From the NCBI RefSeq assembly GCF_000377905.1, contig NZ_KB898872.1, positions 1 through 64,000 on the forward strand: a stretch of 64,000 bases of DNA, given 5' to 3'. This document shows, piece after piece, positions 253 through 23,793 of this stretch. Under the pieces are notes generated by a model, which was not told the origin of the DNA, made no database searches, and worked only from the letters and a program-made list of their open reading frames with translations. The DNA comes from Thioalkalivibrio sp. ALMg11. GTDB taxonomy: Bacteria; Pseudomonadota; Gammaproteobacteria; Ectothiorhodospirales; Ectothiorhodospiraceae. The first letter of the stretch is position 1. Each line of letters starts with the position of its first letter. A program made the position numbers and the translations under genes.

Positions 253-294
253 CTCTCAGTGCTCATACACCAGAATTGACAATAACTCGTGTAG

Positions 295-588
295 TTGGTC
301 CGTCGATCGGACACAAGCTGCCGGCAGATTGCCCTGGAGCTGGGTATCAGGCCGAACCTGCTGACCCGCTGGGTTCGGGAGGCGGAGGCCGGGGCCAGCA
401 AGGCCTTTTCCGGTACTGGGGCGCCAAGGGATGAGGAGGTCGCGCGTCTGAGGCGCGACCTGGCCCGGGTGACCAAGGAACCGGATTTTTTAAGAGACGC
501 GGCCGCGTACTTTGCCAAGGGATTATCTCTCAGCAGTTTCTGCAATGGTCGTGTGGGGATGGAGAGATATCGATCTCAGCCCAGATAA
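295..588 (+). pseudogene. IS3-family OrfA (HTH protein) remnant
   Basis: Ninety-seven codons with a helix-turn-helix (CRQIALELGIRPNLLTRWVRE) followed by a leucine-rich coiled segment ending FLRDAAAYFAKG, the usual layout of IS3-group OrfA. The normal N-terminus is missing, because a stop lies just upstream of the TTG, and the last 20 or so residues do not resemble OrfA. No OrfB follows. This is a truncated, probably inactive copy. Confidence 0.7.
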
Positions 589-676
589 GTAGCACAGTTG
601 GCGGGTCGGTCGTCGGGGTCGCTATAGAACCGGGGTACTGCTGCCGGGTTGCCTGATCATCCGGTGCGGCCCTAGG

Positions 677-2005
677 CTATGCGTTTGACTTTAACGCCAT
701 TTGAGCCGCCTGATAGCTGCCCTCGATGTCGGCCATGTCGGAGGCTTCCGACGCCCCGCGGCGGCCGGCTTCGGCGATGATGGCGGCGTGATCGTACAAA
801 GCGTCGCGTTGGCTGGACAGGCGGACGTTGACCGCAAGCCGCGCAATGGTGTTGAGCATATGGATGATGACCGCGGGGTCGGTAGCTCCGGCTCGGCGGA
901 TCTGGTGGAAAGCGACGTCCATGAAATCACGGAAGCTCGGCGCTCGGCCAACCACGCGCACCACGCCGGCCTCATCGCAAAACACCTCGGGCTGGAGTTC
1001 CCGCCGCATCAGTTCGCCGAGCGCAGCGCCCAAGCGATCGATAACGGCAGTGGCGGTGAAGGGATCGTTGATGCCCGACGAAAGCGCGCGCACGGCGATT
1101 TCGACCAGGTGGCGGATCGAGAACTCCAGATCCTGAACCTCCGTGCGATCTTCGCCGATCAGGATCGCGCCTGCGATTTCGGTCACCAGACCCGGCTCGG
1201 GCAGGCGCCCGGGATAGATACTGGCCTTGTGCGATCCTCGCATGACGAAATCACCGGCACGGAAGTCCAGGCGGACCACCGCCTTGTGCCGGCAGGCGAT
1301 TTCCACGAGGTGCGCATACTTGATCGCCTGCACATAGCCTTCTTCGGATAGCCACAAAGAAGCCGCACGTTCATCGAAGTCGGCCGGCAGCACGTCATCC
1401 GCCTTCGCCCGCTCAACGGGCGGTTGACCTTCGTCCTTCGCCGGCAGAAGGCGTGAAATCGAATCGCGGAGATCTCTGTTGACACGTCGGATCGCTGTAT
1501 CGGAAATGATCGACCGAGCTAAAATGTGGATAAAAAACAGCAGCGCGAACAGGTTGATGAGGGCGAGCGCAGTGCCGATCGTGATCGCAATGTGCGGCAC
1601 CGCGGAAATGTCGAATTCGCTGTCGAGGGTGCGAAGCACTAGCAGGCAATAAATGATGGTCATGAGGAAGGTGCCGAACACGATCTGTGTGCGGAGATCG
1701 CCCATGAAGTTGCCTACCAGTCGTGGTCCAAGTTGACTGGCGGCTAGCGTCAACACCACCATGGTGATCGATATTACGAGTGTCGCCATCGTGACCATTG
1801 AGGAAAAGACGGTCGACAGCAAATTGCGGGCGTCCTCCGGCCCGCCGCTGTGGAGCCAAAACTTTCGGGCCTCCTCCTCCGGCAGGCCGGCATCGAGGTT
1901 AAGGGCTATGACAGCCAGCCCGACCGCGCCGACAGCCATGAGCGTGGGCACAAACCAAAAGCCGGTCCGCAGGGTTGCCCAGAGATTGTAGAGACGGCTC
2001 AGCAT
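677..2005 (-). CDS. DUF2254 integral membrane protein
   Basis: A 442-residue protein resembling the DUF2254 family of predicted inner-membrane proteins of unknown function. Hydrophobic segments lie at about residues 10-35, 75-100 (after the SSMVTMATLVISI stretch), 115-140 and 145-175, followed by a soluble region of about 260 residues. I chose the ATG at 2005 because it begins the conserved MLSRLYNLW and has a GAGG 6 nt upstream; an upstream in-frame start at 2050 would add 15 unlikely residues. An IS1595 relic ends only 38 bp upstream, so the native promoter may have been displaced. Confidence 0.8.
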   Translation of the reverse strand: MLSRLYNLWATLRTGFWFVPTLMAVGAVGLAVIALNLDAGLPEEEARKFWLHSGGPEDARNLLSTVFSSMVTMATLVISITMVVLTLAASQLGPRLVGNFMGDLRTQIVFGTFLMTIIYCLLVLRTLDSEFDISAVPHIAITIGTALALINLFALLFFIHILARSIISDTAIRRVNRDLRDSISRLLPAKDEGQPPVERAKADDVLPADFDERAASLWLSEEGYVQAIKYAHLVEIACRHKAVVRLDFRAGDFVMRGSHKASIYPGRLPEPGLVTEIAGAILIGEDRTEVQDLEFSIRHLVEIAVRALSSGINDPFTATAVIDRLGAALGELMRRELQPEVFCDEAGVVRVVGRAPSFRDFMDVAFHQIRRAGATDPAVIIHMLNTIARLAVNVRLSSQRDALYDHAAIIAEAGRRGASEASDMADIEGSYQAAQMALKSNA

Positions 2006-2043
2006 GGTCGACCTCGCAGGATGGAATACAATCCAACACCTCA

Positions 2044-2669
2044 TTAGCACGAATGCTCCCCAAACCGTAATTCGCGTTCCGGCCGCCGACCGCAGTGCAC
2101 CACAGCAATCAGCAAGCGCTGCGGCAACGTGGCCGGGTCGAAGCGTCGGTTGAACCGGTATGCGAACGCAGCCAGGTAGCGGGCCGCATTATTGGAGGAG
2201 GCAAAGGCGTGGTAGGTCCCGCTCAGACTGGTCTTCAGATTGCCGAGCACGGTGTTGATCCACTGAAACTCCGGCAGGTCCTTCGGCTTGCGGCCGCCGA
2301 CCACGGTGGGCTGGTGCGCGCAGTCGGCCATGGTGACCGCGTTGAAGCGGGCCAGACCGTCGGAGTATACGGTGCAACCCGGCGCCAAGCTCTGGCGCGA
2401 CCAGTCCCACAAGGCTCGGAAGGTGAAACCCGCAACCGGGGACAGCTTCACGCGCAGCGGGTGTTCGTCCTCGGTCAGCAACACCGCGGCCACGAACGGG
2501 ACCTTGTTCTCCGACCCGCGGACAGCCTTAATCACGCCGTGCGCCGTGCGCCGTGCGCCGCGCTACCGCAGCGCGGGCAGCGAAAGCCATCGGGCCAGCG
2601 GGTCTGCTCCAGCGCCGCTGCGCATTGTGCCTCGGTGCCGTACTGGGCGATGAACTCGGGCATCGACAT
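2044..2669 (-). pseudogene. IS1595-family (ISXO2-like) transposase with internal deletion
   Basis: The minus strand first encodes an N-terminal zinc-ribbon piece (MSMPEFIAQYGTEAQ, then CPRCGSAAHG) that stops at about 2536. The C-terminal two-thirds of an ISXO2-type DDE domain then resumes in another frame (RGSENKVPFVAAV through GGRKPKDLPEFQWINT to the normal end ELRFGEHSC). About 100 residues are missing, including the stretch with the first catalytic Asp. The break falls exactly on a tandem heptamer, so the transposase is dead. Confidence 0.8.
2534..2562. repeat. Short tandem heptamer at transposase deletion junction
   Basis: The heptamer gccgtgc is repeated about four times head to tail. 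It sits at the point where the IS1595 transposase loses its middle, which fits replication slippage or deletion between short repeats. Confidence 0.6.
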
Positions 2670-2999
2670 TCCTGCCTGAAACTGATTCCGATTCTGGTCC
2701 ATGCTGCTGCGCTCCGTTCTGGGCGGAGGTCCAGACTACGCCCGGTGGTGGCTCACAGAGTGAGCCTGCGGAGCATCCGTGCTAATCAGGTTTCGCTTTA
2801 GGCTCCAGAGCTTCCGTGGCCGCCTTGTGATCAAGCCTCGCGAATACCTCATCGAACGAGCCATCTGCGAGACAGGGGTGCAGCCCGAGCCACGCACGCA
2901 GGATTTGCCTGTATCGCGCTTGCACGCCTATCTTCCGCGCCTGACTGACAAGTCGAGCGCGGGCGACCTATTCGCTGCCGGAAAACTCGCTCTTCGCGC
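2670..2999. other. Intergenic, IS1595 flank, no gene seen
   Basis: The first about 100 bases look like the outer end of the IS1595 relic (GC-rich, just upstream of its start codon). The rest up to the desaturase stop has only scattered short frames with no recognisable protein, RNA gene or terminator. Confidence 0.5.
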
Positions 3000-4040
3000 T
3001 CACGCGCGCACCGTAGGCGCCTCCGCGTTCGCGTGCTCGAAGGGGACCAGACGCCGGCGCTCCTCGTCCCACAGGGCGAGTCGTGCGCAGTGGAGACTTT
3101 GCCGCAGCGTGAGACGACTAATCTCGCGAAGCTGCGGGAAATCCTTCAGCACCTCGGGCAACCGGTAGAACGGGATGCGGCTGGCGAGATGATGGACGTG
3201 GTGTACCCCGATATTCGCGGTCATCCAGCGCAACGGAGCCGGCAGATCATAGTAGGAGCTCCCATAGAGCGCGGCTTCGCGGAAGGACCACTCCTCGTCG
3301 TGCGCCCAGCGCGTATTCTCGAACTGGTGCTGCACATAGAACAGCCAGACGCCGATGGAAGAAGCCAGAATCGCGATCGGCAGGTGCACCAGAAGAAAGG
3401 TTCCCACCCCCACCAGCGACATCATCGCAATGACGACCAGCACGATGGCCGCATTCGTACCCATGGTGCTCAGCCACGGCATCCATCCCGCGCGCATGAA
3501 CCCGACGGGTACGCGGTTCTGCAACATGAACAGGTAGACCGGCCCCAGGCCGAACAGGATCAGCGGGTGGCGGTACAGCCGGTACCGCAGACGCTGCATC
3601 CGGGGCTGGGCCTGGTATTCGCGCACACTCAAGGTGTCGATGCCCCCCTCGTCAGCGCGATCCAGGTTGCCAGAGTGCGCGTGATGGAGGGCGTGGGTGT
3701 GGCGCCAGAGGTCGTAGGGCGTGAGCGTCAACACCCCCAGGGCCCGTCCCACCCAGTCGTTGGCGCGCCGGGACGGAAAGAAGGAGCCGTGGCCGCAGTC
3801 ATGCTGGATCATGAACACCCGCACGAGAAATCCAGCGGCGGGTATCACCAGCAGCAGACCGAGCCAGTAGCCAGCGCTCACGCTTGCCCAGGTCAAAAAC
3901 CAGAAAAGGCCGAACGGGATCACCGTAACAAGCAGTTCGAAGACGCTGCGGGCGAGGCGCGGCGCACGATAAGCGGACAGTGCCCGCTGTAACGCTCGGG
4001 GATCACCGGTTGTTTCTTGGTGCAGTACTTCTGGATCCAT
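3000..4040 (-). CDS. Membrane fatty-acid desaturase
   Basis: A 346-residue member of the membrane di-iron fatty acid desaturase family. The three histidine boxes are visible: HDCGH at residues 80-84, HTHALHH at 114-120 and HVHH near residue 287. Hydrophobic pairs lie at about 35-75 and 190-235, as in bacterial phospholipid or acyl-lipid desaturases. The ATG at 4040 has a GGAG 9 nt upstream, and upstream in-frame starts lack one. The gene lies downstream of an FAD oxidoreductase and a CFA-type methyltransferase in the same orientation but after a 370-bp gap, so it may have its own promoter. It could supply the double bond used by those enzymes; regiospecificity cannot be read from the sequence. 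Confidence 0.88.
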   Translation of the reverse strand: MDPEVLHQETTGDPRALQRALSAYRAPRLARSVFELLVTVIPFGLFWFLTWASVSAGYWLGLLLVIPAAGFLVRVFMIQHDCGHGSFFPSRRANDWVGRALGVLTLTPYDLWRHTHALHHAHSGNLDRADEGGIDTLSVREYQAQPRMQRLRYRLYRHPLILFGLGPVYLFMLQNRVPVGFMRAGWMPWLSTMGTNAAIVLVVIAMMSLVGVGTFLLVHLPIAILASSIGVWLFYVQHQFENTRWAHDEEWSFREAALYGSSYYDLPAPLRWMTANIGVHHVHHLASRIPFYRLPEVLKDFPQLREISRLTLRQSLHCARLALWDEERRRLVPFEHANAEAPTVRA

Positions 4041-4411
4041 GTATGGACTCCGTAATAGGCTCGACCTCCAACCTACGGGTTCGCAACCCATCGCCGGCGT
4101 GCCGGTTTCTGACACAGAGCCATCGCCCCGATACCGGTCACAATAGCCATAGCCTTTTAAGCCATATTGGACCCATGCGCGTTCACCGTCTGTTCGATAC
4201 CGCACACCGAACCCGCGATGCCGCTACCCGGCGCGGGCAGCCCCAGGGTGGGGCTCAAAAGCGCCAACTACGTTGATGCGGTCGGACCACGACAACCAGG
4301 ACGCGCGACGGGGCATTCACCGTCGATCGCGATCTTGCCGGTCTCCGCGATTTCCCGGCGCGCAATCAGCCGGGGTGGACAAGGATTTTCAGCCTGGAGG
4401 AAAAACCGGCC
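4041..4411. other. Intergenic region upstream of desaturase
   Basis: There is no convincing gene on either strand. It must hold the desaturase promoter if that gene is transcribed separately from the FAD/CFA pair; I could not pick out a clear -35/-10 pair. Confidence 0.4.
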
Positions 4412-5749
4412 TTAGCCCCGTTTCACCGCCTTTTCATAGAGCCCCGGAAAGCGCCCTTCGGGATCGCACTCGTGTTTGAGGGCCTCGTAGGCCGGGCGGT
4501 CGTAGTTCTGCCAGAAGGTCGCTTCGTCGTAGGTACTGCGCGAGTACAGGCTCTTCTTGCCGCCGTGCTTCGCGACCAGTGCCTCGACCCTCGCGTTGTA
4601 ATAGCCGTCGGGCTCGCTGGAGCGGACGATGTCCCAGAAGCCGAAGTTGATGTACGCCGTATCGGGACGCAGCTCGAACAACGAGAACCCGGCCTCTGGC
4701 ACGACAAACGGGCAGATCCACACCGGACGGATCCCGAGTTCGGCCTCGAAATCGGCCAGAAACGCCGCGGCGTTGACGATCGGGATGTCGACGTCCTGGA
4801 TCACCGCCTCGCTGCGCGGCCGTACGGCATGGAGCAGGCTCAGCGGCCAGCGGCGGCTGGCGCGCATGATCTTCTGGTAGGTCACGCTCGACAGGCGCTT
4901 GCGCCCGAGAAGGAGCCGCACCGGCTTGAGGTGGGCGCCGACATTCCTGCTGCACCAGAACCAGTCGGTGTCCCAGCGCCAGAGGTAGTCGTGGATGCTC
5001 AGATAATCCTCGCGCCGCTCGCGCAGGCTCTGCCAGTACTGGCGCATCCAGGTGTAGTCACCGGCCTCGGTGTCCGCCGGCGGCGATTCCACGCAATGCG
5101 CGCGGGTCAGCACGAAATCGCCGGGGGCGAAGTACACGCCATCGAGAAACGCGCAGGTCGGGTGCGCGCATTCCTCGGCGATCGCCGTGAACAGTTCCTC
5201 GGGGTCGCGGAAGCGGGTGTGCTCCAGCCGCACATAAGGCTCCACCCGAATCAGCCGCAGCCGGACCCGGGTGGCGTAACCGAGGCTGCCGTAGGAGTTC
5301 GGAAAGCCGTAGAACAGTTCCGGGCGCTGCTCGCGCGAGCAGGTCAACACGCGACCGTCGGCGACCATGACGTCGAGCTCGTCCACCGTGTCGTGCACCA
5401 GGCCGTAGCGGAACGCGCCCGACTCGATGCCGATCCCGGTGGTCGCGCCGCCGACCGTGATGCTCTTGAGCTCCGGCACGATGGCCGGGGCCAGGCCATA
5501 CGGCAGCGTTGCGTCGACCACGTCGGCATAGGTCGTCATGCCCTCGACCTCGGCAACGCCGGCCTCGGGATCGATCTCGATCACGTGGTTGAGCGAAGCC
5601 ACGTCGATCTCCGTCCGGCGGGCCTCCTCGCGCGGCCTGAACAGGTTGCTGGTGGACTTTCTGAGGCGCACCGGTCCGTCCGACCCGGCCAGCGCCGCGG
5701 CCATCGCCTCCACACGATTGCGGTGGGCGGCCCAGCCGGCGCTGCTCAT
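4412..5749 (-). CDS. FAD-binding oxidoreductase paired with CFA-type methyltransferase
   Basis: A 445-residue protein with a PCMH-type FAD-binding N-terminal half: an ITVGGATTGIGIESG loop at about 97-111 and the following HDTVDELDVMVADG strand. The C-terminal half contains FWCSRNVGAHL and a substrate-domain tail. The architecture matches single-domain flavoproteins that accompany SAM-dependent fatty-acyl methyltransferases, namely TmsA of 10-methylstearate synthesis and the UfaD-like enzymes. The start at 5749 overlaps the stop of the upstream CFA gene by 4 bp (ATGA), so the two are translationally coupled. Likely role: reduction or dehydrogenation of a methylated or unsaturated acyl chain on membrane phospholipid. 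The exact reaction is inference. Confidence 0.75.
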   Translation of the reverse strand: MSSAGWAAHRNRVEAMAAALAGSDGPVRLRKSTSNLFRPREEARRTEIDVASLNHVIEIDPEAGVAEVEGMTTYADVVDATLPYGLAPAIVPELKSITVGGATTGIGIESGAFRYGLVHDTVDELDVMVADGRVLTCSREQRPELFYGFPNSYGSLGYATRVRLRLIRVEPYVRLEHTRFRDPEELFTAIAEECAHPTCAFLDGVYFAPGDFVLTRAHCVESPPADTEAGDYTWMRQYWQSLRERREDYLSIHDYLWRWDTDWFWCSRNVGAHLKPVRLLLGRKRLSSVTYQKIMRASRRWPLSLLHAVRPRSEAVIQDVDIPIVNAAAFLADFEAELGIRPVWICPFVVPEAGFSLFELRPDTAYINFGFWDIVRSSEPDGYYNARVEALVAKHGGKKSLYSRSTYDEATFWQNYDRPAYEALKHECDPEGRFPGLYEKAVKRG

Positions 5750-6876
5750 CGGACCGGCTCGTAACGCGGCAGATCCCCGTGGCTGAGCACGAGCTGCCAG
5801 AGATTCAGCTGGCGCGCCCGGAAGGCGCCGGCACAGCTCAACAGGTAATAGCGCCACATCCGGTAGAAGCGTTCATCCAGGCCTTCGCTTTGTTTCAGAT
5901 CCGGCCAGGCGGCAGCGAAATTGCCGTCCCAGGCCATCAGGGTGCGGTCATAGTCCGGGCCGAAGTTGTGCCAGTCCTCGAGCACGAACAGCCCCTCCTT
6001 GGCCCGAGTGAGCTGCGCCTCGGATGGGATCACGCCACCGGGGAAGATGTATTTCGCGATCCAGGGGTCGGTGCCGCCACGGCTAATGTTGCCGCCGATG
6101 GTGTGGACCAGCGCCAGGCCGCCGGGCTTCAGGCGGGCCCGGGCCAGATCGAAGAAGGCGCGAAAGTTCTTCGGCCCGACGTGCTCCATCAGACCGACAC
6201 TCAGGACACGGTCGTATTGCCGGGATTCATTGGCCGCCTCGCGGTAGTCCTGCTGCCGAACGTCGACCGGCAGGCCCTCGCAAAGCCCTCTCGCGTACTC
6301 CACCTGCTGACTGCTGATGTTGTAGCTGTCCACCTCGCATCCGTGCTCCGCGGCCAGAAACCGGGCCAGCTCGCCGAACCCGCCGCCCAGTTCGAGCACG
6401 CGCATACCCGGCTCCAGGTGCAGCTTGCGCGCGATCAGGTCCAGCTTTGCGCGCTGGGCTTCGTCCAGGGTCGCCTCGGCCCCGTCGGGGCCGTAATAGG
6501 CGCAGGTGTATTGCATGGTCGGCCCGAGCATGGCCTCGTAGAGCCGGTTCGAAAGGTCGTAATGCTGCTCCGCGACCCGCCGCGAGCGCCGGCGACTCTG
6601 CTCGTTGCCGAGCCAGCTCAGCAACACCTGGCCAAGTACCGACGGCGTACGGACCTTGTCGTCCAGGCTGGCCTGGAGGATCCGGAAGAACAACTCGTCG
6701 AGCCGCTCGGTGTCCCACCAGCCGTCCATGTAGGCCTCGCCGGCACCGAGCGAGCCCTCGGCCAGAATGCGCTGATACAGGCGCTCGTCGTGGACCTGGA
6801 GATCCCAGGGCCGCTCGCCGCCGGCCTCGACGTCAGCGCTGCGCAGCAGTTCCGTGACTTGTTGTCTTGCTGACAT
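5746..6876 (-). CDS. Cyclopropane-fatty-acyl-phospholipid synthase family methyltransferase
   Basis: A 376-residue protein (E. coli Cfa has 382). The SAM-binding motif I is VLELGGGFGEL at 160-170. Residues matching the bicarbonate/active-site set of Cfa are present: C125 (in QYTCAYY), E231 (in MEHVGPKN) and H258 with I260 (in HTIGG). It ends with the usual CAGAFRARQLNLWQLV block. The ATG at 6876 follows AAGGAG at 9 nt, and an upstream extension of 28 codons has no RBS. It methylates unsaturated phospholipid acyl chains, giving either a cyclopropane or, with the coupled flavoprotein, a methyl-branched product. Sequence alone favours the Cfa subfamily; the neighbour argues for a branched product. 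Confidence 0.85.
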   Translation of the reverse strand: MSARQQVTELLRSADVEAGGERPWDLQVHDERLYQRILAEGSLGAGEAYMDGWWDTERLDELFFRILQASLDDKVRTPSVLGQVLLSWLGNEQSRRRSRRVAEQHYDLSNRLYEAMLGPTMQYTCAYYGPDGAEATLDEAQRAKLDLIARKLHLEPGMRVLELGGGFGELARFLAAEHGCEVDSYNISSQQVEYARGLCEGLPVDVRQQDYREAANESRQYDRVLSVGLMEHVGPKNFRAFFDLARARLKPGGLALVHTIGGNISRGGTDPWIAKYIFPGGVIPSEAQLTRAKEGLFVLEDWHNFGPDYDRTLMAWDGNFAAAWPDLKQSEGLDERFYRMWRYYLLSCAGAFRARQLNLWQLVLSHGDLPRYEPVR

Positions 6877-7039
6877 GCTCGCGCTCCTTGCAGGAATCGG
6901 ATGGCCGGGGTCCGGGCGCAATAACCGCGCCACATTAGCCTTAATCAGAGCTAGACCCAAGCTCGCAACGTTCCATTCTCCTCCGGATCCGGACGTCCCC
7001 GGAAGTGGTGCAGATCGAGGGTGGTGAAGCCACCGTGAG

Positions 7040-7081
7040 CCTTCGTTAGAGTTGCAGTCGCCGAACTCGCAACAACGAAGG
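7040..7081. repeat. Imperfect inverted repeat upstream of IS481 relic
   Basis: Two arms, CCTTCGTT..TTGC and GCAA..AACGAAGG, flank a loop of about 16 nt. It may be the terminal region of the transposase relic just downstream or a structured leader. Confidence 0.35.
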
Positions 7082-7169
7082 AGAACCCCACCGCTCTTAC
7101 TCCACTGGACGCGACTCGGGTTCTACCCCATTCCTGACAACCGAACGCAGGGATGGCATCAATGGCGAG

Positions 7170-7296
7170 TACGACTCATGCGAACGTGCTCCACGCCCCA
7201 GATCGGGCGAGAGCTTCAGGAGGCACCATCCAGCGGGAGTGATCCAGAACTGGCACGGCGCTATGGCATCGCCGGTATGACCGTGCGCATGAACCG
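7170..7296 (+). pseudogene. IS481-type transposase N-terminal fragment
   Basis: In frame 2 the DNA encodes TPQIGRELQEAPSSG, then DPELARRYGIAGMTVR. This is the characteristic N-terminal helix-turn-helix of IS481/IS3-like transposases, which usually continues as TVRKWR. The match ends abruptly where the duplicated 1.4-kb block begins, so only about 40 residues survive. Confidence 0.45.
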
Positions 7297-8674
7297 CCCC
7301 GGGTTTCCCGGAGTCCCGTTGGTTTGGGTCACGCTGCACGAACGGACCCCTGAAGTGGTTGATGGTACTGCGCTTCGATCGCCGCCGGCGGTCCGAACCC
7401 CCGCGTATTATCCCAGACGTGCACGATCGGCACCGCCCACGGCGGAGTAAATCGGTGTTTCCCTAACGGACGAGATCTGCTGTGCGGCGTGTGGTCGAGC
7501 CGAACCACAAGGGTTTGTCGACGACGAACTTCATCGACCGTTTCACCAGTCCTTGGCCGGGGAAGAAGCCAAGATCGAGCCAAAACCGGATCACCGCCGG
7601 AGCATCAAGATCGATGCTCTGCTCGATCGGCACCAGGAAGCCTTCGTAATCACCCGCCGGAGTCGCATACCGCTCTAGAGTGATGGGCATGACTCGGTGC
7701 TGGTACTCACCCGTGTGTTCAACCTCTTGCGTCTCTCTATTCACGACGGTGGCCCTGCCAGAGGCGCTCCATGTCCGATCGGGCACGATCCTGCTGGGTA
7801 GCAGCACCACGGGTGGCTCGTACAGCACGGTCTGGCCTTGCGTCAGCACGTCCAGACCGGTCAGCACCACGCTGCCATCCCAAAGCTCGGAAAGATGGAG
7901 AATGTTGTAGTCACCAAATCGAACTTCCCAGCGGCCTTCACCGTCTGCGGGAATCAGTTCCAGCACGACTTGCCGTCCTTCTCCGTCTCCGTCGACCACC
8001 CTGAACGTGCTTTTACCGGGAACCAGAGGGAAAAGCTCTCCAGCCTCAACCTCTTGAACCGACGATATCGGAGGCGCCGATGTCTCCGCGAGGGTGGCCC
8101 CGGAGGTGCAGAGGCCGACGCCGATCAGTATCGCTCGCGCGTAAGACTGGTACATCGCATCTCTCCTGGAGTCTGAGGGCAAGGTGCCGCGCAACACTCG
8201 TGGCAGTGAAGCGACGTCAACGGGAGAACCGGCCCCACTGGCGGGGGATTGTGAGATCTCTCCTAGATTGTAGAGGACGTCCGCGTCGTGGTCCTCGGCG
8301 GTCCCGAGGTATTAGTCGGTTTCGCCGGTGAGTACAGGCATGGACGGCCTCGTTGCCAAATGCATGGTTGCCTGAAGCGGTTAGATCGGCCCCTTCAGTC
8401 GGGTTATGCGCTCACACGGCTCGCTGCACAAGCACATCCGGGCCCTGGGGGCCGCGGGATATGTGCAGGCCATCCGCGGGCGCCATCAAGGGGGCCGGCT
8501 AACTAACGGCTTGTTCCGTTCACCCTCGCGCGAAGACGAAGGTGCGGCAACCGGGTCATGGGGTACCCACACCCTGCCCCTGCTCAGACGCATCGCGGCC
8601 AACCCACCGATCGAGGCGCTGGCGAACCCCGAACCCGTGGAGGTACCACCGGCCCTGCGCGGGCGTGGCGAGTG
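7297..8674. repeat. Duplicated 1.38-kb block, copy A
   Basis: This stretch is repeated in direct orientation at 44605-45979. Both copies contain the same leader, the same secreted-protein gene on the minus strand and the front of a degraded lexA-like sequence. The copies differ by scattered substitutions and a few small indels; the encoded proteins match at about 218 of 230 residues by my count. Copy A continues lexA-like for about 55 bases beyond the point where copy B is cut by an ISL3 relic. Confidence 0.85.
7463..8155 (-). CDS. Secreted protein of unknown function, copy A
   Basis: A 230-residue protein starting at the ATG at 8155, which has AGGAGAG upstream. A Sec signal peptide is clear: a hydrophobic core ILIGVGLCTSG and a likely cut after ATLA (residue 23). 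The mature part is rich in beta-strand-like segments and has no recognised catalytic motif. A near-identical paralogue lies at 44768-45460, with 12 substitutions by my count, several of them conservative. Retention of an open frame in both copies argues that at least one is functional. I do not recognise the family. Confidence 0.75.
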   Translation of the reverse strand: MYQSYARAILIGVGLCTSGATLAETSAPPISSVQEVEAGELFPLVPGKSTFRVVDGDGEGRQVVLELIPADGEGRWEVRFGDYNILHLSELWDGSVVLTGLDVLTQGQTVLYEPPVVLLPSRIVPDRTWSASGRATVVNRETQEVEHTGEYQHRVMPITLERYATPAGDYEGFLVPIEQSIDLDAPAVIRFWLDLGFFPGQGLVKRSMKFVVDKPLWFGSTTRRTADLVR

Positions 8675-14552: not shown

Positions 14553-14759
14553 TTAGATAGAATCTGAGATATTGGCGATATACAGATTCTGGATAACACC
14601 GACATAGCCGTGATATCCCGCGAGCGAGGCTCCATACCGTTCGGTTACCAAGGCGCAGTGGGAGACCGCTTGGCGAACCAATCGGCGGGATGGCGGCGTG
14701 GTGCGTTTCAGCCCCCGGATTGCCGAAGAGAGCGCCAATGCGCCGAGACGCGTGTTCAT
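14553..14759 (-). CDS. Hypothetical 68-residue protein after hsdR
   Basis: The ATG at 14759 overlaps the hsdR stop by 4 bp (ATGA), which would allow coupled translation. The product is basic, with no recognisable domain. The overlap is the main support; it may be chance. Confidence 0.3.
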   Translation of the reverse strand: MNTRLGALALSSAIRGLKRTTPPSRRLVRQAVSHCALVTERYGASLAGYHGYVGVIQNLYIANISDSI

Positions 14760-17700
14760 TGAGCGGGCCTCGTGGGGATGGTGCGTTGGTCGCCTGTCCC
14801 GGCGGTCAGGAGGCGCAGGATCAGCAAAGCGAAGTCGCGCTGCCGTTCGGGGTCGTCCAGGACCTGCATGGAGAGTTTTTCGTGGTCGGTCATGGCGTCG
14901 AGGACGGTGTCGGTGACGCGTTTGGGGAACAGGCCGTGCATCACTTGGTCGGGGCTGTGGTTCTCGACCTGGGCCATCACGGACTCATCGCGGCGGATGC
15001 GGTCGGCGATGCCGTTGGCGAACTGGAGCTTGTCTTGGTCGCTCACTTCGGCGCCGAAGAGGTCGTTGAGCTGGTCGATGATCTCTGAGAGGCGTTTCTT
15101 TTCCGGGTCGTGGGGCTTGCCGGAGCCGACGTCGGAGAGGGGCTTCAGACCGTCGTAGTCCTCACCCTCTTCGCCGAGGTTCAGTTGGTGTTCGGCGCGC
15201 TTGTTCAGGCGGTAGTGGGTCAGTTCCAGTTCGGAGACGTCGATTGCGTCTTCTTCCAGGTTTTGGGTGCCCAGCAGCGGGTGCAGGCCGCGGGCGTATA
15301 CGCATAGCTGTTCCAGCTCGCGGTCTTCGAAGTCGACAATCTGAGAGAGGAACTCGTAGCTGCGCACGAAGCTCTGGAGGTTCTTGCGGAACAGGTCCAG
15401 CTCGTCGCGCGTGGTGTGGGCGTCCTTCAGCTCCTGCTCGGCTCGGTGCAGGCCGGGCTTGTCGCCATTGCGTTCGGCTTGGGCGTAGGCGCCTTTCCAG
15501 GTCTGGATCTGCTCGAGGACGGCCTTGTAGCGGGTGGTGTAGCGTTCCCGGGCGGACTGGCAGTAGTAGCTGAGCTGGCTGGCGTTGGCCTTCGGGTTGA
15601 AGAATGCGCGGGCGAAGTTCTCGACCTCGTCCCAGTGGTAGATGCCTGAGGCGTCCAGGCTGTGCTGCAGGTCGTAGACCACGTTCGGGTCGGAGACGTC
15701 GGCCAGCTCGGCCTTGTTGTAATACGGGCGGAAGGCTTCGAGGATGTCTTCGGCATCGTTGAAGAAGTCGAGGACGAACGTGTCCTCCTTGCCCGGGAAG
15801 GTGCGGTTCAGGCGGGAGAGCGTCTGCACGCATTCCACGCCCTGCAGCTTCTTGTCCACGTACATGGCGCAGAGCTTGGGTTGGTCGAACCCGGTCTGGA
15901 ACTTGTTGGCCACGATCATCACGTTGTATTCGGCGGTCTTGAACGCGTCGGCCAGGTCGCGCCCCTTCAGGCTCGGGTTCAACAGCGAGCTGTGCTCGGT
16001 CACCTCCTCGGGGATTACGTCGTCCGGCAGCACGGAGCCGGAGAAGGCCACCAGTGCGTGCACGTCGCCATAGCCCTTGTCCTGGATGTACTCGCGCATC
16101 GCCAGCGCGTAGCGCACCGCCTCCTGCCGACTGCCGGTCACCACCATCGCCTTGGCCTGGCCATCCAGCAGGTGGCGCACGTTGGCGCGGAAGTGCTCGA
16201 CGATCACCTCCACCTTCTGGCTGATGTTGTACGGGTGCAGCCGCACCCAACGGGCGATCTTGGTCGAGGCCTTGCGCGACTCCACTTCCTCGTCATCGCC
16301 ATGCGGGTGCGCCAGCTTCCAGGCGGTCGAGTAGGTGGTGTAGTTCTTCAGCACGTCGAGGATGAAGCCCTCCTCGATCGCCTGGCGCATGGAGTACAGG
16401 TGGAACGGCTCGGGTTTGTTGTCGGCCGAAGCCGGCAGGTCCGGATCCGGCGGGCGGCCGAACAGCTCCAGGGTCTTCGCCTTGGGCGTGGCGGTGAAGG
16501 CGTAGTAGCTGATGCGCTCGGTCGGCTTGCGCGAGGCGACGGCCGCATCCATCAGCTCTTCGGCGCTGATCTCTTCATCCTCCGGCTTGTCGGTGCCCAG
16601 GATGGCCTTGAGCTTGGTGGCGGAGGAGCCGGTCTGCGAGGAGTGCGCCTCGTCGGCGATCACTGCGTAGCGCCCGGCGGCCAGCTCCGGGCGTTTGTCC
16701 AGCGCGTCGAACAGCGCCGGGAAGGTCTGGATGGTCACGATGATGATGCGCGTCTGCTCGGCCAGCGCCTCAGCCAGTTGCTCCGACTTGCTCTGGCTGC
16801 CGACATCGCGGGTGATGGGCCGCACCACCCCATGCGCGTGTTCGAACTGGTAGATGGTGTCCTGGAGCTGGCTGTCCAGCACGGTGCGGTCGGTCACCAC
16901 TACCACGGAGTTGAACAGCTTCTGGCCGCTCTCGTCGTACAGCGAGGCGAGCTGGTGTGCGATCCAGGCGATGGAGTTGGACTTGCCGGAGCCCGCGCTG
17001 TGCTGGATCAGGTAGCGTTGGCCGGCACCTTCCTCCCGCGTGGCCCCGATCAACTGGTTCACCACATCCCACTGGTGGAAGCGCGGGAAGATCAGGGTCT
17101 CCTTCTTGCTGCGCTTGCCGTGGAAATCCTCGACCGTCTTCTGCTCCAGATGTAGGAAGCGGCCAAGCACCTTGAGCCAGGCATCGGGCTGGAAGACCTG
17201 CTGCCACAGGTAGCCGGTGGCGTAGCTGTCCGGGTCCGGCGGTGCGGGGTTGCCGGCGCCGCCGTCCTCGGTGCCCTGGTTGAAGGGCAGAAAGAAGGTG
17301 TCCTTGCCCGCCAGGCGGGTCGCCATCGCCACCGCGTGCTGGCTGACCGCGAAATGCACTAGTGCCCCGCGCTTGGGGGTGAGCAGCGGCTCGGGCTTGC
17401 GGGTGACCGGGTCTTTCACCGGCCGGTCGCGCCGGTACTGGCGCTTGGCGTTCTCGACCGACTGCTTGAACTCGCTCTTCAGCTCCAGCGTGGCGGTGGG
17501 GATGCCATTGACGAACAGCACCAGATCCAGCCGCGGATTGTACTCCCCGCTGCGCGCATGCGGCGAGTACGAGACCTCCGGTACCACGCGCAGGCGGTTG
17601 GCGCGATAGCGGGCCAGGGACTCGGGATTCATGCCGTGGTCGGGCTTGAAGCTGCACAGATCCAGCTTCACGCCGGGCGTCTTCACCCCGTGGCGTAGTA

Positions 17701-17950
17701 CATCCAGCGTGCCGCCGCGCTCCAGCTCGCGGGTAACCGCGCGCACCAGGGCCCGTTGCGGGTCCTGCGGGTTCTTCGCGGCGAACTTCTCCCAGCGCTC
17801 CGGCCAGGCCTCCTGCAGATAGCCGACCAGGTCCTCGGTGTACAGCGCGTTCGCGGCGTCATAGCCGCCGGCCGGACCGGTCAGCCAGCCATCGGCGGTC
17901 ATCGCGTCGATGATGTCCTGCTGAAACTTCGCTTCCCTGCTGTCCGCCAT
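14756..17950 (-). CDS. hsdR: Type I restriction enzyme, R (motor/nuclease) subunit
   Basis: A 1064-residue HsdR. The N-terminal nuclease core has D142 and E156-L-K158 (LDLVLFVNG..LELKSE). The SF2 translocase has Walker A HSAGSGKS at about 316-323, DEAHSSQ (motif II) and TATPKAKT (motif III) in the middle, and a helical C-terminal third. It cleaves DNA away from the recognition site after ATP-driven translocation, in complex with HsdM and HsdS. The ATG at 17950 has GGGAG upstream. It is the last large gene of the operon, 173 bp after the GIY-YIG gene. It appears intact. Confidence 0.95.
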   Translation of the reverse strand: MADSREAKFQQDIIDAMTADGWLTGPAGGYDAANALYTEDLVGYLQEAWPERWEKFAAKNPQDPQRALVRAVTRELERGGTLDVLRHGVKTPGVKLDLCSFKPDHGMNPESLARYRANRLRVVPEVSYSPHARSGEYNPRLDLVLFVNGIPTATLELKSEFKQSVENAKRQYRRDRPVKDPVTRKPEPLLTPKRGALVHFAVSQHAVAMATRLAGKDTFFLPFNQGTEDGGAGNPAPPDPDSYATGYLWQQVFQPDAWLKVLGRFLHLEQKTVEDFHGKRSKKETLIFPRFHQWDVVNQLIGATREEGAGQRYLIQHSAGSGKSNSIAWIAHQLASLYDESGQKLFNSVVVVTDRTVLDSQLQDTIYQFEHAHGVVRPITRDVGSQSKSEQLAEALAEQTRIIIVTIQTFPALFDALDKRPELAAGRYAVIADEAHSSQTGSSATKLKAILGTDKPEDEEISAEELMDAAVASRKPTERISYYAFTATPKAKTLELFGRPPDPDLPASADNKPEPFHLYSMRQAIEEGFILDVLKNYTTYSTAWKLAHPHGDDEEVESRKASTKIARWVRLHPYNISQKVEVIVEHFRANVRHLLDGQAKAMVVTGSRQEAVRYALAMREYIQDKGYGDVHALVAFSGSVLPDDVIPEEVTEHSSLLNPSLKGRDLADAFKTAEYNVMIVANKFQTGFDQPKLCAMYVDKKLQGVECVQTLSRLNRTFPGKEDTFVLDFFNDAEDILEAFRPYYNKAELADVSDPNVVYDLQHSLDASGIYHWDEVENFARAFFNPKANASQLSYYCQSARERYTTRYKAVLEQIQTWKGAYAQAERNGDKPGLHRAEQELKDAHTTRDELDLFRKNLQSFVRSYEFLSQIVDFEDRELEQLCVYARGLHPLLGTQNLEEDAIDVSELELTHYRLNKRAEHQLNLGEEGEDYDGLKPLSDVGSGKPHDPEKKRLSEIIDQLNDLFGAEVSDQDKLQFANGIADRIRRDESVMAQVENHSPDQVMHGLFPKRVTDTVLDAMTDHEKLSMQVLDDPERQRDFALLILRLLTAGTGDQRTIPTRPAQ

Positions 17951-18123
17951 GATGCTCCCTGTGTTTCGTGCGTCCCGTTACTAGCTGCGGAGTGTCGGGT
18001 TATCCGTTTGGCACCAGCCAGTACACAATGGCCCGGGATCTCTACTCCGCATCGTGCTACGGGCAGCCCATCGACCCCGCTAAGCCCTACCCTATGCGAC
18101 TCGCGGCTTTCCGGATACCCGCA

Positions 18124-19047
18124 TCAATCCTCTCCCGCCGCTGCCGAAACCTGTTGGTCCTGCCAGGCGGCGTAGGTCTGTCCAGAGCCCTCGACACACC
18201 AACTTGTCCGGCCATTGGCCGGCCGCCCGGATACGATTGCCGCCGCCGCGCTCGGGCTTGAAAACGCCTGTTCCGCCGAAAAACGCGTCTTGCCCGACTC
18301 ATCAACCTTCAGCACTCCGTCTTCCTTGAGCTGCTCGTACAGGGCTCGGTAACTGGTGTGCTCGCTAACCCACTTCTCCCGCGCAATGCTTCCGGAAAGC
18401 ACAAAGAACTGCCCATCGACTTCCTGTGCTCGCGCCTTGACCCCGTGGGAGGCGATTTCCATCACGAAGACCGGCGAGGATTCAGGCCCGCCTTCCCCTG
18501 GTCCTTCATTCGAGGGCGTCTTGCGTTGTTCGCTCAGGAAGTCGAAACCCAGTACCGGCAGTATCGTGCGGATCTGTTCAAGGAAAAATGCCATATCGGC
18601 ACGATCCGACTCTGGAAGATTGATGTACTCATGTGCTGTCCCGTTGACCAGCTTGCACCGGCCCACCTCGCCCGCGCTCTGTATCAACAGGCTCTCCAAA
18701 TACTTCACATGCGCCTTGGTCAGATTAGGATCCTTGCTGGTGACCAGGCAGGCCTTTTCCCAGAAATCCTTACCACCTTTTTCCTCCGGACGATTGTGCT
18801 GCTTCAAACGCATACCCACATCGTCAGATTCACCGATATAAACCAGCGGGCGCAAACTATTATCCGGGTCCGGGCCCACCAGGAAGTACACTCCGGTGCG
18901 GCCGCACTCTGGGCGTTTCACTAGCTCCGAGAGTTTCGTCCGCTGTCCCGATAGCACATGGCCGGTCCAGTTCATGATCTCCGCGGTCAGCAGCCCGTGC
19001 GGCGTGCCGTCGACCAGGAACAGGCGGATGCTGCGGCCCTGGGTCAT
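18124..19047 (-). CDS. GIY-YIG nuclease with DUF4357, inside the RM operon
   Basis: 307 residues. The N-terminal third has a GIY-YIG core (GVYFLVG.., LVYIGESDDVGMRLKQHN, about 52-80). The C-terminal part, from about 215, carries a DUF4357-like segment (AREKWVSEHTSYRALYEQLKEDGVL). Its ATG overlaps the hsdS stop by 4 bp, so it is part of the operon between specificity and restriction genes. Proteins of this type commonly ride with type I systems, perhaps as an accessory nuclease; the role is not established. Confidence 0.8.
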   Translation of the reverse strand: MTQGRSIRLFLVDGTPHGLLTAEIMNWTGHVLSGQRTKLSELVKRPECGRTGVYFLVGPDPDNSLRPLVYIGESDDVGMRLKQHNRPEEKGGKDFWEKACLVTSKDPNLTKAHVKYLESLLIQSAGEVGRCKLVNGTAHEYINLPESDRADMAFFLEQIRTILPVLGFDFLSEQRKTPSNEGPGEGGPESSPVFVMEIASHGVKARAQEVDGQFFVLSGSIAREKWVSEHTSYRALYEQLKEDGVLKVDESGKTRFSAEQAFSSPSAAAAIVSGRPANGRTSWCVEGSGQTYAAWQDQQVSAAAGED

Positions 19048-20456
19048 GCCGCGCCGCCTTGCGCTGAATACCCGGCGCGGTGCTCGGCGACCATGGCCAG
19101 CTCCGGCTCTTCCGACTCGACACCGGTCGACCAGCCGCGAACGTCAATCTTGCCGGTGACGGCCGCCGAAATCAGTGCCGAGCGTCGCTCCTGCAATACC
19201 GCAACAGCCTGATGAGACGCATCCAAAAGCCGTTCCAGATCACCAGTCATGTGTTCGATATGGTCCACTATCTCGTTTTGCTCTGGAAGAGGCGGGACCG
19301 GAATCATCAGCGCCTTGATCGTGGCCTGGGATAAATTATTCGCTAAGCCTTCCGCTCCATTGATTGACTGCTCTATCTGTCGCCGCAGAGACACACTACC
19401 CAGCGTTCTGGAGATAAACTTTGGCGAGACATTACGTGTAAATATCAACCTGAATAGCTTATCTGAGAGCATCAACTGTCCACGTGATTGATCTACATGC
19501 GCGACCGAACCGATTAGATCGGTCGAGCCACTCGCACGGCACAGCAGAACATCTCCGCTACGAACTTCTAGTTCTGGTCGTGGATGAAGCTCGTCGGGAA
19601 GGGATTTATTTTCGTTCTCCCGGAAAATCCCGTTATTCACGGCGCCTGCTTTCAGAACGCCCCACCCGCCATCCTCAGCAGGCGTGTTATTGCATTCTGG
19701 GCTCCACCCTTGTTCGATTGCATCAAGGACCCGGCGCAAGCTCACGGCATCCCAATGCGCCGGGACCTCGCCCAGCCATTCGACGCCGGGGTCCTTCATG
19801 GGCACGTTGGGGTCGAGGCCCTTGGTGACGGCGTGAGAGATCACGGCCTGCCGCTTCTCCTTCAGCAGCTCGATCAGCCGCCGCTGCTCCTCGATCAGCG
19901 CATCGATCTGCCCGGTTTCGTGGTTGAGAAAGACGGCAATCTTTTCCTGTTCCTCACGGGGCGCGAGTGGGAGGGCTATACTTCCGAAATCCGAGAATCT
20001 TATGCTTTTACCATCGCGCAAGCTGTCCGTTGTTGCCTGCAGGGCTGAGATATATGCAACGTCCTTCAGAAGGTAGCGAAAATATTTCGGTTCAATAGGT
20101 GAAGATGCAGCCTGAAGGACAGTATATGCTGAGCTAACTATGCCTTTGTAATATGACCGCTCAATACCACCTTCGAAAGAACGAAGGCTTATAACAAAGT
20201 CATCTCTTTCTACATGACGGAAGGCATTGCTCTCCCGTATGGCAATGGCCACGCGCCTTTCCGTATCCTCCATAAATTGACGCTGGGGCACTACGCCATA
20301 AGCTTGGCTAGCGGTAAGTTGCTCATCGCCGGGATGCGGACGCTCTTTCCTCTGCTTGAATAACCGCCTTCCGGCGAGCACCCGCCAATGCGCCGGCACC
20401 TCGCCCAGCCACTCGACGCCGGAGTCCTTGTACTCCGGGTACCTCGGAAAGGTCAT
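19044..20456 (-). CDS. hsdS: Type I restriction enzyme, S (specificity) subunit
   Basis: 470 residues in two halves. Each half begins with the same conserved block ([12 protein letters not shown] at 13-24 and again near 223), followed by a target recognition domain and a long helical spacer ([34 protein letters not shown]). It directs methylation and cleavage to a bipartite sequence. The TRDs have visibly lower GC than the conserved helices, as expected for swapped domains. Its start overlaps the abi stop by 4 bp. Confidence 0.93.
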
Positions 20457-21373
20457 TGCGAAGCCTCCTGGCTGCTAGTTCCGACAACTACTGACCAGAA
20501 ATCGCGTTCCTTCCAGTCCGCGGGGAAGCCCATCAGGGTGGCGTCGATAGCATGAGTCCGAATCAAATCGCCCAATCGCTGTTTCCAGTGGTGGTTCGGG
20601 CTGATGATGTCGAGCAGGTATCCGAGCATGACCAGCGTGTTGTAGAGGCGACGGGGCTCATTGGCGTTGATGACCTCGGCGAGGGCCCTTGGTTTGCGCG
20701 GCAGTTTCATGGTGATCGTGAGACGCCGGTTCCACACCCGGCTGTGGTGAGCACAAAGGTTGCGGACATAGGTGAGGTGGCGGACGAACGCCTGGAGCAC
20801 CTTCTGGTTCAGGCCATAGGGCTTCGCGATCGCCTCGCGGTCGTGGGGGCGCAGGTGGGTGATCCAGCGTGACAGCAGCCCGAGGGACATGACTTCGCAA
20901 ACCGCCCAGACCGGGGGCGTCGCCGGCCGGCGATAGGTGTTGCGATAGTGCGCCACGAAGGTCTCGTCTGAGCGCGAGACTTCCGCTTCGAGCTTCGCGA
21001 GGTGGCTGGCGTGCCAGTCGCCACGCACGGACAGCGAGGCATCCAGATAGGAGTGGGGGCCGTGCTGATGCGCCATGTGATAGGCCCATCCCGCACGCAG
21101 GGAGACTTCTACACGCTCGATCGCATCCAGCAGCAACAGGCGGAATTCACGGTCGAATACGTACAGGTTCAGAAGCGCATCGAACGACGCCCCCTGCTGG
21201 AAGCGGTGCGTGTCGTGATCCGCTTCGAACGGCAGCCAGTACGCGGTGAGGCGGTAGTAGTTCAGGTGCCGCAGATAGTGCAGCGCCCGGTCACGGTCTT
21301 CGATGTGCAGGCCGCGGGCCTCGAGCAGGCCAAGCTGCTCCTGGTGCGTCCTGGCGGGCTTGGTGAAATCCAT
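20453..21373 (-). CDS. Abi-family (AbiD/AbiF, Abi_2) protein inside the RM operon
   Basis: 306 residues. The N-terminal [14 protein letters not shown] and [21 protein letters not shown] blocks and the later [17 protein letters not shown] are hallmarks of the Abi_2 family. The last contains an Rx4-6H motif of HEPN ribonucleases, near residues 205-213. It overlaps hsdS by 4 bp and follows hsdM by 200 bp. It could be an abortive-infection back-up that acts if restriction fails, or an antitoxin-less toxin controlled by the methylase; these are inferences. Confidence 0.85.
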
Positions 21374-21573
21374 TCACGCCTTCCCAGAAACAAGTAACCC
21401 GCCGGTTTGAGGGTACTCCGGGGAGCATAGCCTTGGCGGGTATTGTTGCCGGGCATTATAGTTTGTGATGCCCCACTGGGCAACGCCTCGCCCCTTGAAC
21501 AACACAGTCGCACCCCGCCCGCCCCGGGGCCACGCCATCACCGAGCTGACCGTAATGCTGCGGCTTTCGCGCA
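21374..21573. other. hsdM-abi spacer
   Basis: A 200-bp gap. A 67-codon frame begins next to the hsdM stop (GTG-ATG at 21577) but resembles nothing known and I do not call it. The spacer may hold a promoter that uncouples abi-hsdS from hsdM. Confidence 0.35.
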
Positions 21574-23553
<1,980 letters not shown>

Positions 23554-23793
23554 GCCCTGCTCCCCTGTTCTTTCTTCACTCTGCCCAATGCCGGGCACCC
23601 GATGGTGCCGGCATTGTTGCAGCAAACCTTCACGCCGCGCGAACACCCCAATGGCGTTATTGCTCGCGCCCAACCCCCCAGCCTGCCAGCTTCAGGCGAC
23701 AATTCCCGACGCCTGAGCCCGCAATGCCAGACCTTCCCTAATTGCCTTTTTCCGAGACAGGGGAACAGGAAGGGGTCCTGTGCGACCGCCGCA

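Follow-up and report, generated by a model that had tools for sequence, protein, structure and literature searches.

The two genes at the center of this report most likely make mid-chain methyl-branched membrane fatty acids. They lie between positions 4412 and 6876 of the window, by which is meant the whole 64,000-nucleotide stretch analyzed (positions 1 to 64,000 of contig NZ_KB898872.1 of the soda-lake sulfur bacterium Thioalkalivibrio sp. ALMg11), and they encode a methyltransferase dependent on S-adenosylmethionine (SAM) and a flavoprotein. At a probability of roughly 0.7, the pair is predicted to be an operon that introduces mid-chain methyl branches in two steps, as a variant of bfaAB, the 10-methylstearate pathway of actinobacteria (first named tmsAB; Machida 2017, PMC5660069; this and other published work is cited from parts of the sources), with an enzyme of the type of E. 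coli cyclopropane fatty acid synthase (Cfa) in the place of the methyltransferase BfaB. An earlier note on this DNA had proposed a methyl-branched lipid pathway made up of these two genes and a desaturase gene downstream. A candidate pathway of the TmsA/BfaA type is supported by homology, conserved pairing, and the published lipids of a congener, but the desaturase is dropped from it.

All three genes are present on the minus strand, as judged by open reading frames and Pfam matches. That of the methyltransferase runs from an ATG at 6876 to a TGA at 5746 (376 residues; PF02353, CMAS, 247 bits) and that of the flavoprotein from an ATG at 5749 to a TAA at 4412 (445 residues), the latter having PF01565 (FAD_binding_4, 64 bits) as its sole Pfam match. 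The stop and start codons overlap in an ATGA, exactly at 5749-5746, as had been noticed before, and an in-frame ATGA occurs in 11 of the 26 pairs that have an E. coli Cfa-like methyltransferase. A scan for a promoter or terminator between the two genes gave nothing above shuffled controls. The pair occurs a second time in the window's genome (G000; 3.04 Mb, 18 contigs), on contig C4, with a methyltransferase 96% and a flavoprotein 91% identical to those of the window, and the two copies have in common a minus-strand block, window 4271 to 6992 and no further, with 92.7% DNA identity, perhaps a mobile or duplicated unit. The genome also has three further CMAS genes covering most of the model, plus weaker methyltransferase matches.

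The window flavoprotein is 97% identical to a protein of Thioalkalivibrio sp. AKL19 and 42-52% identical, over almost its full length, to relatives from other lineages, including actinobacterial genes in the bfaAB arrangement. Of 80 related loci fetched, 65 have an adjacent CMAS-type methyltransferase gene on the same strand (20 E. coli Cfa-like and 45 divergent, four of the 65 being fragments or split frames), a pairing judged too frequent for chance, while in a Salinisphaera locus (L064) the CMAS gene is convergent with that of the flavoprotein. A tree of 86 flavoproteins places the window's within a set of 25 rows with E. coli Cfa-like partners and 15 actinobacterial rows (support 97); on the opposite side of the branch are 46 mostly proteobacterial rows, one of them (L055) with an E. 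coli-type partner. The flavoprotein gene comes ahead of the methyltransferase gene in the actinobacterial loci, among them those of Amycolatopsis, Prauserella, Nonomuraea, and Planotetraspora. On sequence grounds, the flavoprotein is of the BfaA type, a class set here through the 15 actinobacterial rows beside BfaB-type genes, in a tree without a biochemically tested BfaA. A structure model of the protein (mean predicted local distance difference test score 88.6) comes closest to DprE1 (Z 28.5, root-mean-square deviation 3.3, 363 residues aligned), with L-galactonolactone dehydrogenase tied and cytokinin dehydrogenases close behind. The sterol C24 reductase DHCR24, presumably a mechanistic analogue, is not among the fold matches listed, which excludes nothing. 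Three stand-alone flavoprotein genes (L041:7374-9314, L057:7380-9326, and L078:1854-3800) have no CMAS neighbor and begin about 12-15 bases after a gene whose product resembles an NADPH-dependent reductase of flavin mononucleotide.

The methyltransferase belongs, by its place in a tree of 96 CMAS sequences, to the E. coli-type Cfa clade and not to the BfaB lineage. The 25 flavoprotein-adjacent E. coli-like rows, the window's included, make up one side of a branch with support 100. They are labeled Pseudomonadota, Acidobacteriota, Nitrospirota, Myxococcota, Thermodesulfobacteriota, and two candidate groups known from metagenome-assembled genomes (MAGs), so that the pair is conserved across several phyla. 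This clade, inside E. coli-type Cfa, adjoins 18 unpaired rows of the same type. The 15 actinobacterial partner methyltransferases and those of betaproteobacteria form separate clades, and rows resembling TmpB, the methyltransferase of the published proteobacterial route tmpBA, lie elsewhere in the tree (built by a quick method without bootstraps and rooted at the midpoint). The TmpB-like rows were identified by a TIGR02032-type neighbor and not by a tested sequence: four of the five have an adjacent gene of the geranylgeranyl-reductase type, the two that were scanned both exceeding the TIGR02032 cut-off and all four found by tblastn. The comparison comprised 104 rows, leaving out methyltransferase fragments in L023, L058, L069, and L075 as well as duplicate loci; the 8 rows outside the tree, and one more outside an alignment of 95 rows, were still scored for residues. 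One locus from a Chromatiaceae MAG (L056:6666-9341) pairs a TmpB-like methyltransferase with a BfaA-type flavoprotein, a natural hybrid of two published pathways.

Acids of the predicted kind have been measured in Thioalkalivibrio, with no gene assignment in the literature examined, so far as the parts cited go. At 30 °C, T. versutus AL2 contains 19.3% 10-methyl-16:0, 1.7% 10-methyl-16:1 Delta9, and 0.8% 12-methyl-18:0, along with 1.9% 16:1 Delta5 and 38.2% C19 cyclopropyl acid (Ahn 2021, PMC8092127). For T. nitratis ALJ2, the same source gives 40.5% C19 cyclopropyl acid and, in the parts cited, neither methyl acids nor any 16:1, 17:1, or 18:1 Delta5; 12:1 Delta5 occurs in both strains (PMC8092127). 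A single regiochemistry would account for both methyl positions, C10 arising from Delta9 and C12 from Delta11. At 10 °C, 10-methyl-16:1 in AL2 stands at 3.9% and 10-methyl-16:0 is down to 3.4% (PMC8092127), a shift in which the unsaturated acid might be behaving as an unreduced intermediate. According to the model, then, the methyltransferase would form a methylene or methyl branch on a monoene, and the flavoprotein, through reduced flavin adenine dinucleotide (with NADPH as donor by analogy with BfaA of T. curvata), would reduce the methylated alkene to saturated 10-methyl-16:0 and a little 12-methyl-18:0.

The distribution of the genes was surveyed in 30 Thioalkalivibrio genomes, 23 of them good. 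Full-length flavoprotein is found in 8 of the 30, always preceded by the methyltransferase, which in G018 lies at a contig end and is incomplete; two others, G022 and G026, have only pieces of the methyltransferase, at contig ends. Counted by hand on the basis of identity, the paired methyltransferase occurs in the good genomes as 7 complete genes and 1 partial, whereas the other kinds of CMAS gene occur in 23/23 (L103-kind), 23/23 (C8-kind), and 21/23 (C6-kind). Since the paired gene is patchy and the others nearly universal, it is the paired gene that would be expected to explain a patchy methyl-acid trait.

The earlier note had observed that the methyltransferase retains the classical active-site residues of Cfa, and this is so: all five residues of the bicarbonate site, which we take to be C139, E239, H266, I268, and Y317 in E. 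coli numbering, are kept. The note had gone on to doubt the nature of the product for that reason, but the residues do not discriminate, because they are kept in 68/68 flavoprotein-paired methyltransferases of every lineage sampled; as an argument for a cyclopropane product they were likewise dropped. The residue before the catalytic Glu is another matter. Of the 32 methyltransferases without a redox neighbor, 26 have Phe at this place, but the 68 rows paired with a BfaA-type protein and the 4 paired with TmpA have Met, Leu, Cys, or Thr there without exception (Phe in 0/72); in the window, Met230 (minus strand, codon 6187-6189) precedes catalytic Glu231 (codon 6184-6186). Fisher's p for the pattern is 3e-17 on 95 rows, a figure not valid as a test because the rows are related. 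At E. coli position 197, the E. coli-type paired, betaproteobacterial, and TmpB-like rows share Asn where E. coli has Thr; the actinobacterial rows do not. One might tentatively suppose, though the idea is more doubtful than the operon itself, that Cfa-type enzymes have repeatedly shifted from ring closing to methyl branching with the bicarbonate site intact and the Phe before the catalytic Glu replaced, that the E. coli-type clade did so independently, with the same BfaA-type reductase as other lineages, that the change from Phe to Leu, Met, Cys, or Thr is a main product switch, and that many genes named Cfa by equivalog make methyl-branched lipids.

The exceptions to the Phe pattern are L161, L066_1844, L064, L169, L170, and L171, L170 among them being TmpB-like and L064 the methyltransferase whose gene is convergent with that of a flavoprotein. 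The sole exception of E. coli type, L161:346-2674, is an unpaired Cfa with Leu before the Glu, and its gene is divergent to one with desaturase-like histidine boxes. A further departure at the active site is seen in a third CMAS kind of the window genome (L104, G000:C8:34000-44000; gene at about 4329-6242), in which Ala replaces the His that follows the catalytic Glu, and Gln stands where E. coli has His266. Within about 11 kb of this gene lie a putative DUF3429-like gene and two distant reductase matches (C8:27599-29781); perhaps the neighborhood is a cluster of the type of UfaM, the methyltransferase of the Rhodobacter furan pathway.

Several observations weigh against a methyl-branching role or the proposed switch. 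The methyltransferase scores 502.4 bits on the cyclopropane-synthase equivalog PRK11705 (NCBIfam), above the cut-off of 400. No CMAS gene was found near the flavoprotein gene in 14 of the 80 loci, and none of the sequences aligned is a biochemically tested BfaA or BfaB. Phe is missing before the Glu also in 6/32 rows without a redox neighbor; and of five independent pairs on starred branches, in a tree built without the residue columns concerned, about two show a difference, each of them in the direction predicted, which is not significant. The gene aprA is reported in ALJ2 and not in AL2 (PMC8092127), and the window genome is without it; yet aprA separates carriers of the pair poorly, the complete pair occurring in 3/6 good genomes without aprA and in 4/17 with it, so it was set aside as a weak marker of T. 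versutus-like versus T. nitratis-like genomes. Finally, Nitrospira, taken as an independent lipid test, speaks neither way: N. moscoviensis has 11-methyl-16:0 (PMC5516240), a methyl at C11 that departs from the rule of C10 from Delta9; full-length flavoprotein was found in 6 of 59 sampled Nitrospira genomes, with the lipid-typed species not identified among them.

Might the methyltransferase be an ordinary cyclopropane synthase, its partner acting elsewhere or altering the cyclopropane chain by ring opening or desaturation? The equivalog score, the intact bicarbonate site, the nearest solved fold (6bqc, E. coli Cfa), and the prominence of C19 cyclopropane acid in the genus (PMC8092127) all speak for it. 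However, the paired rows group in a single clade separate from the unpaired rows of E. coli type, Phe precedes the Glu in 0/26 of the paired E. coli-type rows, three other kinds of CMAS are nearly universal in the genus, C19 cyclopropane is equally high in ALJ2, for which the cited data show no methyl acids (PMC8092127), and the BfaA-type family works on methylene chains where tested. An ordinary cyclopropane synthase is thus unlikely. That the flavoprotein oxidizes rather than reduces, with a methylated diene as the product of the pair (an allylic product or a precursor of furan type), is very improbable, even though its fold neighbors are oxidases and dehydrogenases such as DprE1 and the cytokinin dehydrogenases, and UfaM followed by UfaD act in such an order in Rhodobacter (PMC7380195). 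The actinobacterial relatives reduce, UfaD is described as phytoene-desaturase-like, a different kind of flavoenzyme (PMC7380195), and the acids listed for AL2 include saturated 10-methyl-16:0 and no furan acid (PMC8092127). The furan-type product that the earlier note had allowed for is accordingly put down as unlikely, on the modeled fold of the flavoprotein and a UfaD set apart by its description, with no search made for UfaO.

The pair has, as its neighbor on the minus strand, the membrane fatty acid desaturase gene (3000-4205; PF00487, FA_desaturase, 108 bits; a frame of 401 residues, its true start perhaps at 4040-4115), at least 206 bases from the flavoprotein gene. The earlier note took the three genes as one candidate pathway, with the desaturase as a possible source of the monoene, and there are grounds for this: at 55% identity or more, the desaturase occurs in 6 of the 23 good genomes, all within the 8 that have a complete or partial paired methyltransferase (hypergeometric p 2.8e-4, ignoring phylogeny; G027, with a fragment, and G025, with a 25% match, are not counted). 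But only 2 of the 30 genomes (G000 and G015) have the desaturase gene alongside the pair. It is on separate contigs in G001, G004, and G029 (with two stops in the G029 copy), and the genome search did not find it in the pair carriers G006 and G024. In seven other Thioalkalivibrio copies (that of C4 and six loci, the G018 copy being left out), the homology ends short of the desaturase, at 4271-4387 in L135, L137, L138, L139, and L140 and at 4410 in L141; the second AKL19 copy is the sole one syntenic further, over 289-8674. The trio as a unit was rejected on the extent of the block and on linkage. Nor does the desaturase look like the supplier of substrate: its best named family is a Delta5 DesA model (357.7 bits, under the cut-off of 500), the Delta5 monoenes of AL2 are separate acids, and the authors assign that strain's 16:1 Delta9 to the Fab route (PMC8092127). 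A single pathway of three genes is therefore distinctly improbable. The desaturase is perhaps a separate, possibly Delta5, enzyme, a reading suggested by the resemblance of its co-occurrence with the pair to the published lipids, in which C16-C18 Delta5 monoenes and methyl acids come together in one strain.

Other features of the locus lie further off. Part of an IS1595-type transposase (163 residues, window 2044-2535) adjoins the desaturase gene, a sign of past mobility. Downstream of the desaturase is a gene for a DUF2254 membrane protein (677-2050), and one 35% identical (L064:6225-7604) stands just before the flavoprotein gene in the Salinisphaera locus. The open reading frames at 14756-23673 look like a type I restriction-modification cluster that encloses an Abi-like gene.

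The pair provides a concrete gene candidate for the 10-methyl acids of Thioalkalivibrio, with a natural contrast in AL2 and ALJ2. Among the matches listed from the open-licence PMC literature, no bfa-type system was seen in Thioalkalivibrio or other gammaproteobacteria. The distribution indicates that the BfaA-type reductase is not limited to actinobacteria and adjoins several methyltransferase lineages, and tmpBA may not be the sole proteobacterial route. Also, annotation by equivalog as cyclopropane synthase can mislead: because the methyltransferase has the make-up of the ordinary cyclopropane enzyme of E. coli, it would probably be misnamed in routine annotation, and if a single site were truly the switch, many genes so named would make methyl-branched lipids. 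Relatives of BfaA are of practical interest for branched lubricant lipids, as TmpA was inactive in both E. coli and yeast (Blitzblau 2021, PMC7791843).

How does the pair compare with known systems? Its methyltransferase is 47% identical to E. coli Cfa, with the same fold and bicarbonate-site residues and a score above the equivalog cut-off, but it has Met for Phe before the catalytic Glu, Asn for Thr at position 197, and a place in an operon with a BfaA-type flavoprotein. The UfaM-UfaD-UfaO pathway likewise proceeds from SAM methylation of a phospholipid monoene to a flavoenzyme; however, UfaD (compared by description) is phytoene-desaturase-like and adds a double bond (PMC7380195), whereas the window flavoprotein is of the FAD_binding_4 family with a DprE1-like modeled fold.

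The operon tmpBA, which governs 10-methylpalmitate in Desulfobacter, Marinobacter, and Thiohalospira and has 16:1 Delta9 as a favored substrate (PMC7791843), resembles the pair in having the methyltransferase first and the flavoenzyme second; further points of likeness listed are the Leu that precedes the catalytic Glu in the TmpB-like rows and their Tyr/Phe-Asn-Ile/Val-Ser motif. It differs in that TmpA is geranylgeranyl-reductase-like and unrelated to BfaA (PMC7791843) and in that the window methyltransferase lies apart from the TmpB-like rows, themselves identified by neighbor. With a FAD_binding_4 partner in the pair and no TmpA-like gene beside a CMAS gene in the window genome (the sole TIGR02032 gene over the cut-off is on contig C5), the pair does not qualify as tmpBA.

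The closest counterpart is bfaAB, in which BfaB alone yields 10-methylene-18:0 in E. coli and BfaA with BfaB yields 10-methyl-18:0 (PMC5660069), the reduction by T. curvata BfaA being NADPH-dependent (PMC7791843). The window pair shares with it a BfaA-type FAD_binding_4 flavoprotein beside a CMAS-family methyltransferase and a four-base overlap like that in M. chlorophenolicum (PMC5660069). It cannot be filed as bfaAB, because its methyltransferase groups with Cfa of the E. coli type and not with the 15 actinobacterial partners, and because the gene order is reversed: methyltransferase first in 26/26 E. coli-type pairs, flavoprotein first in 15/15 actinobacterial loci, as in the published bfaAB (PMC5660069). 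We infer by analogy that the pair would nonetheless work like bfaAB and tmpBA.

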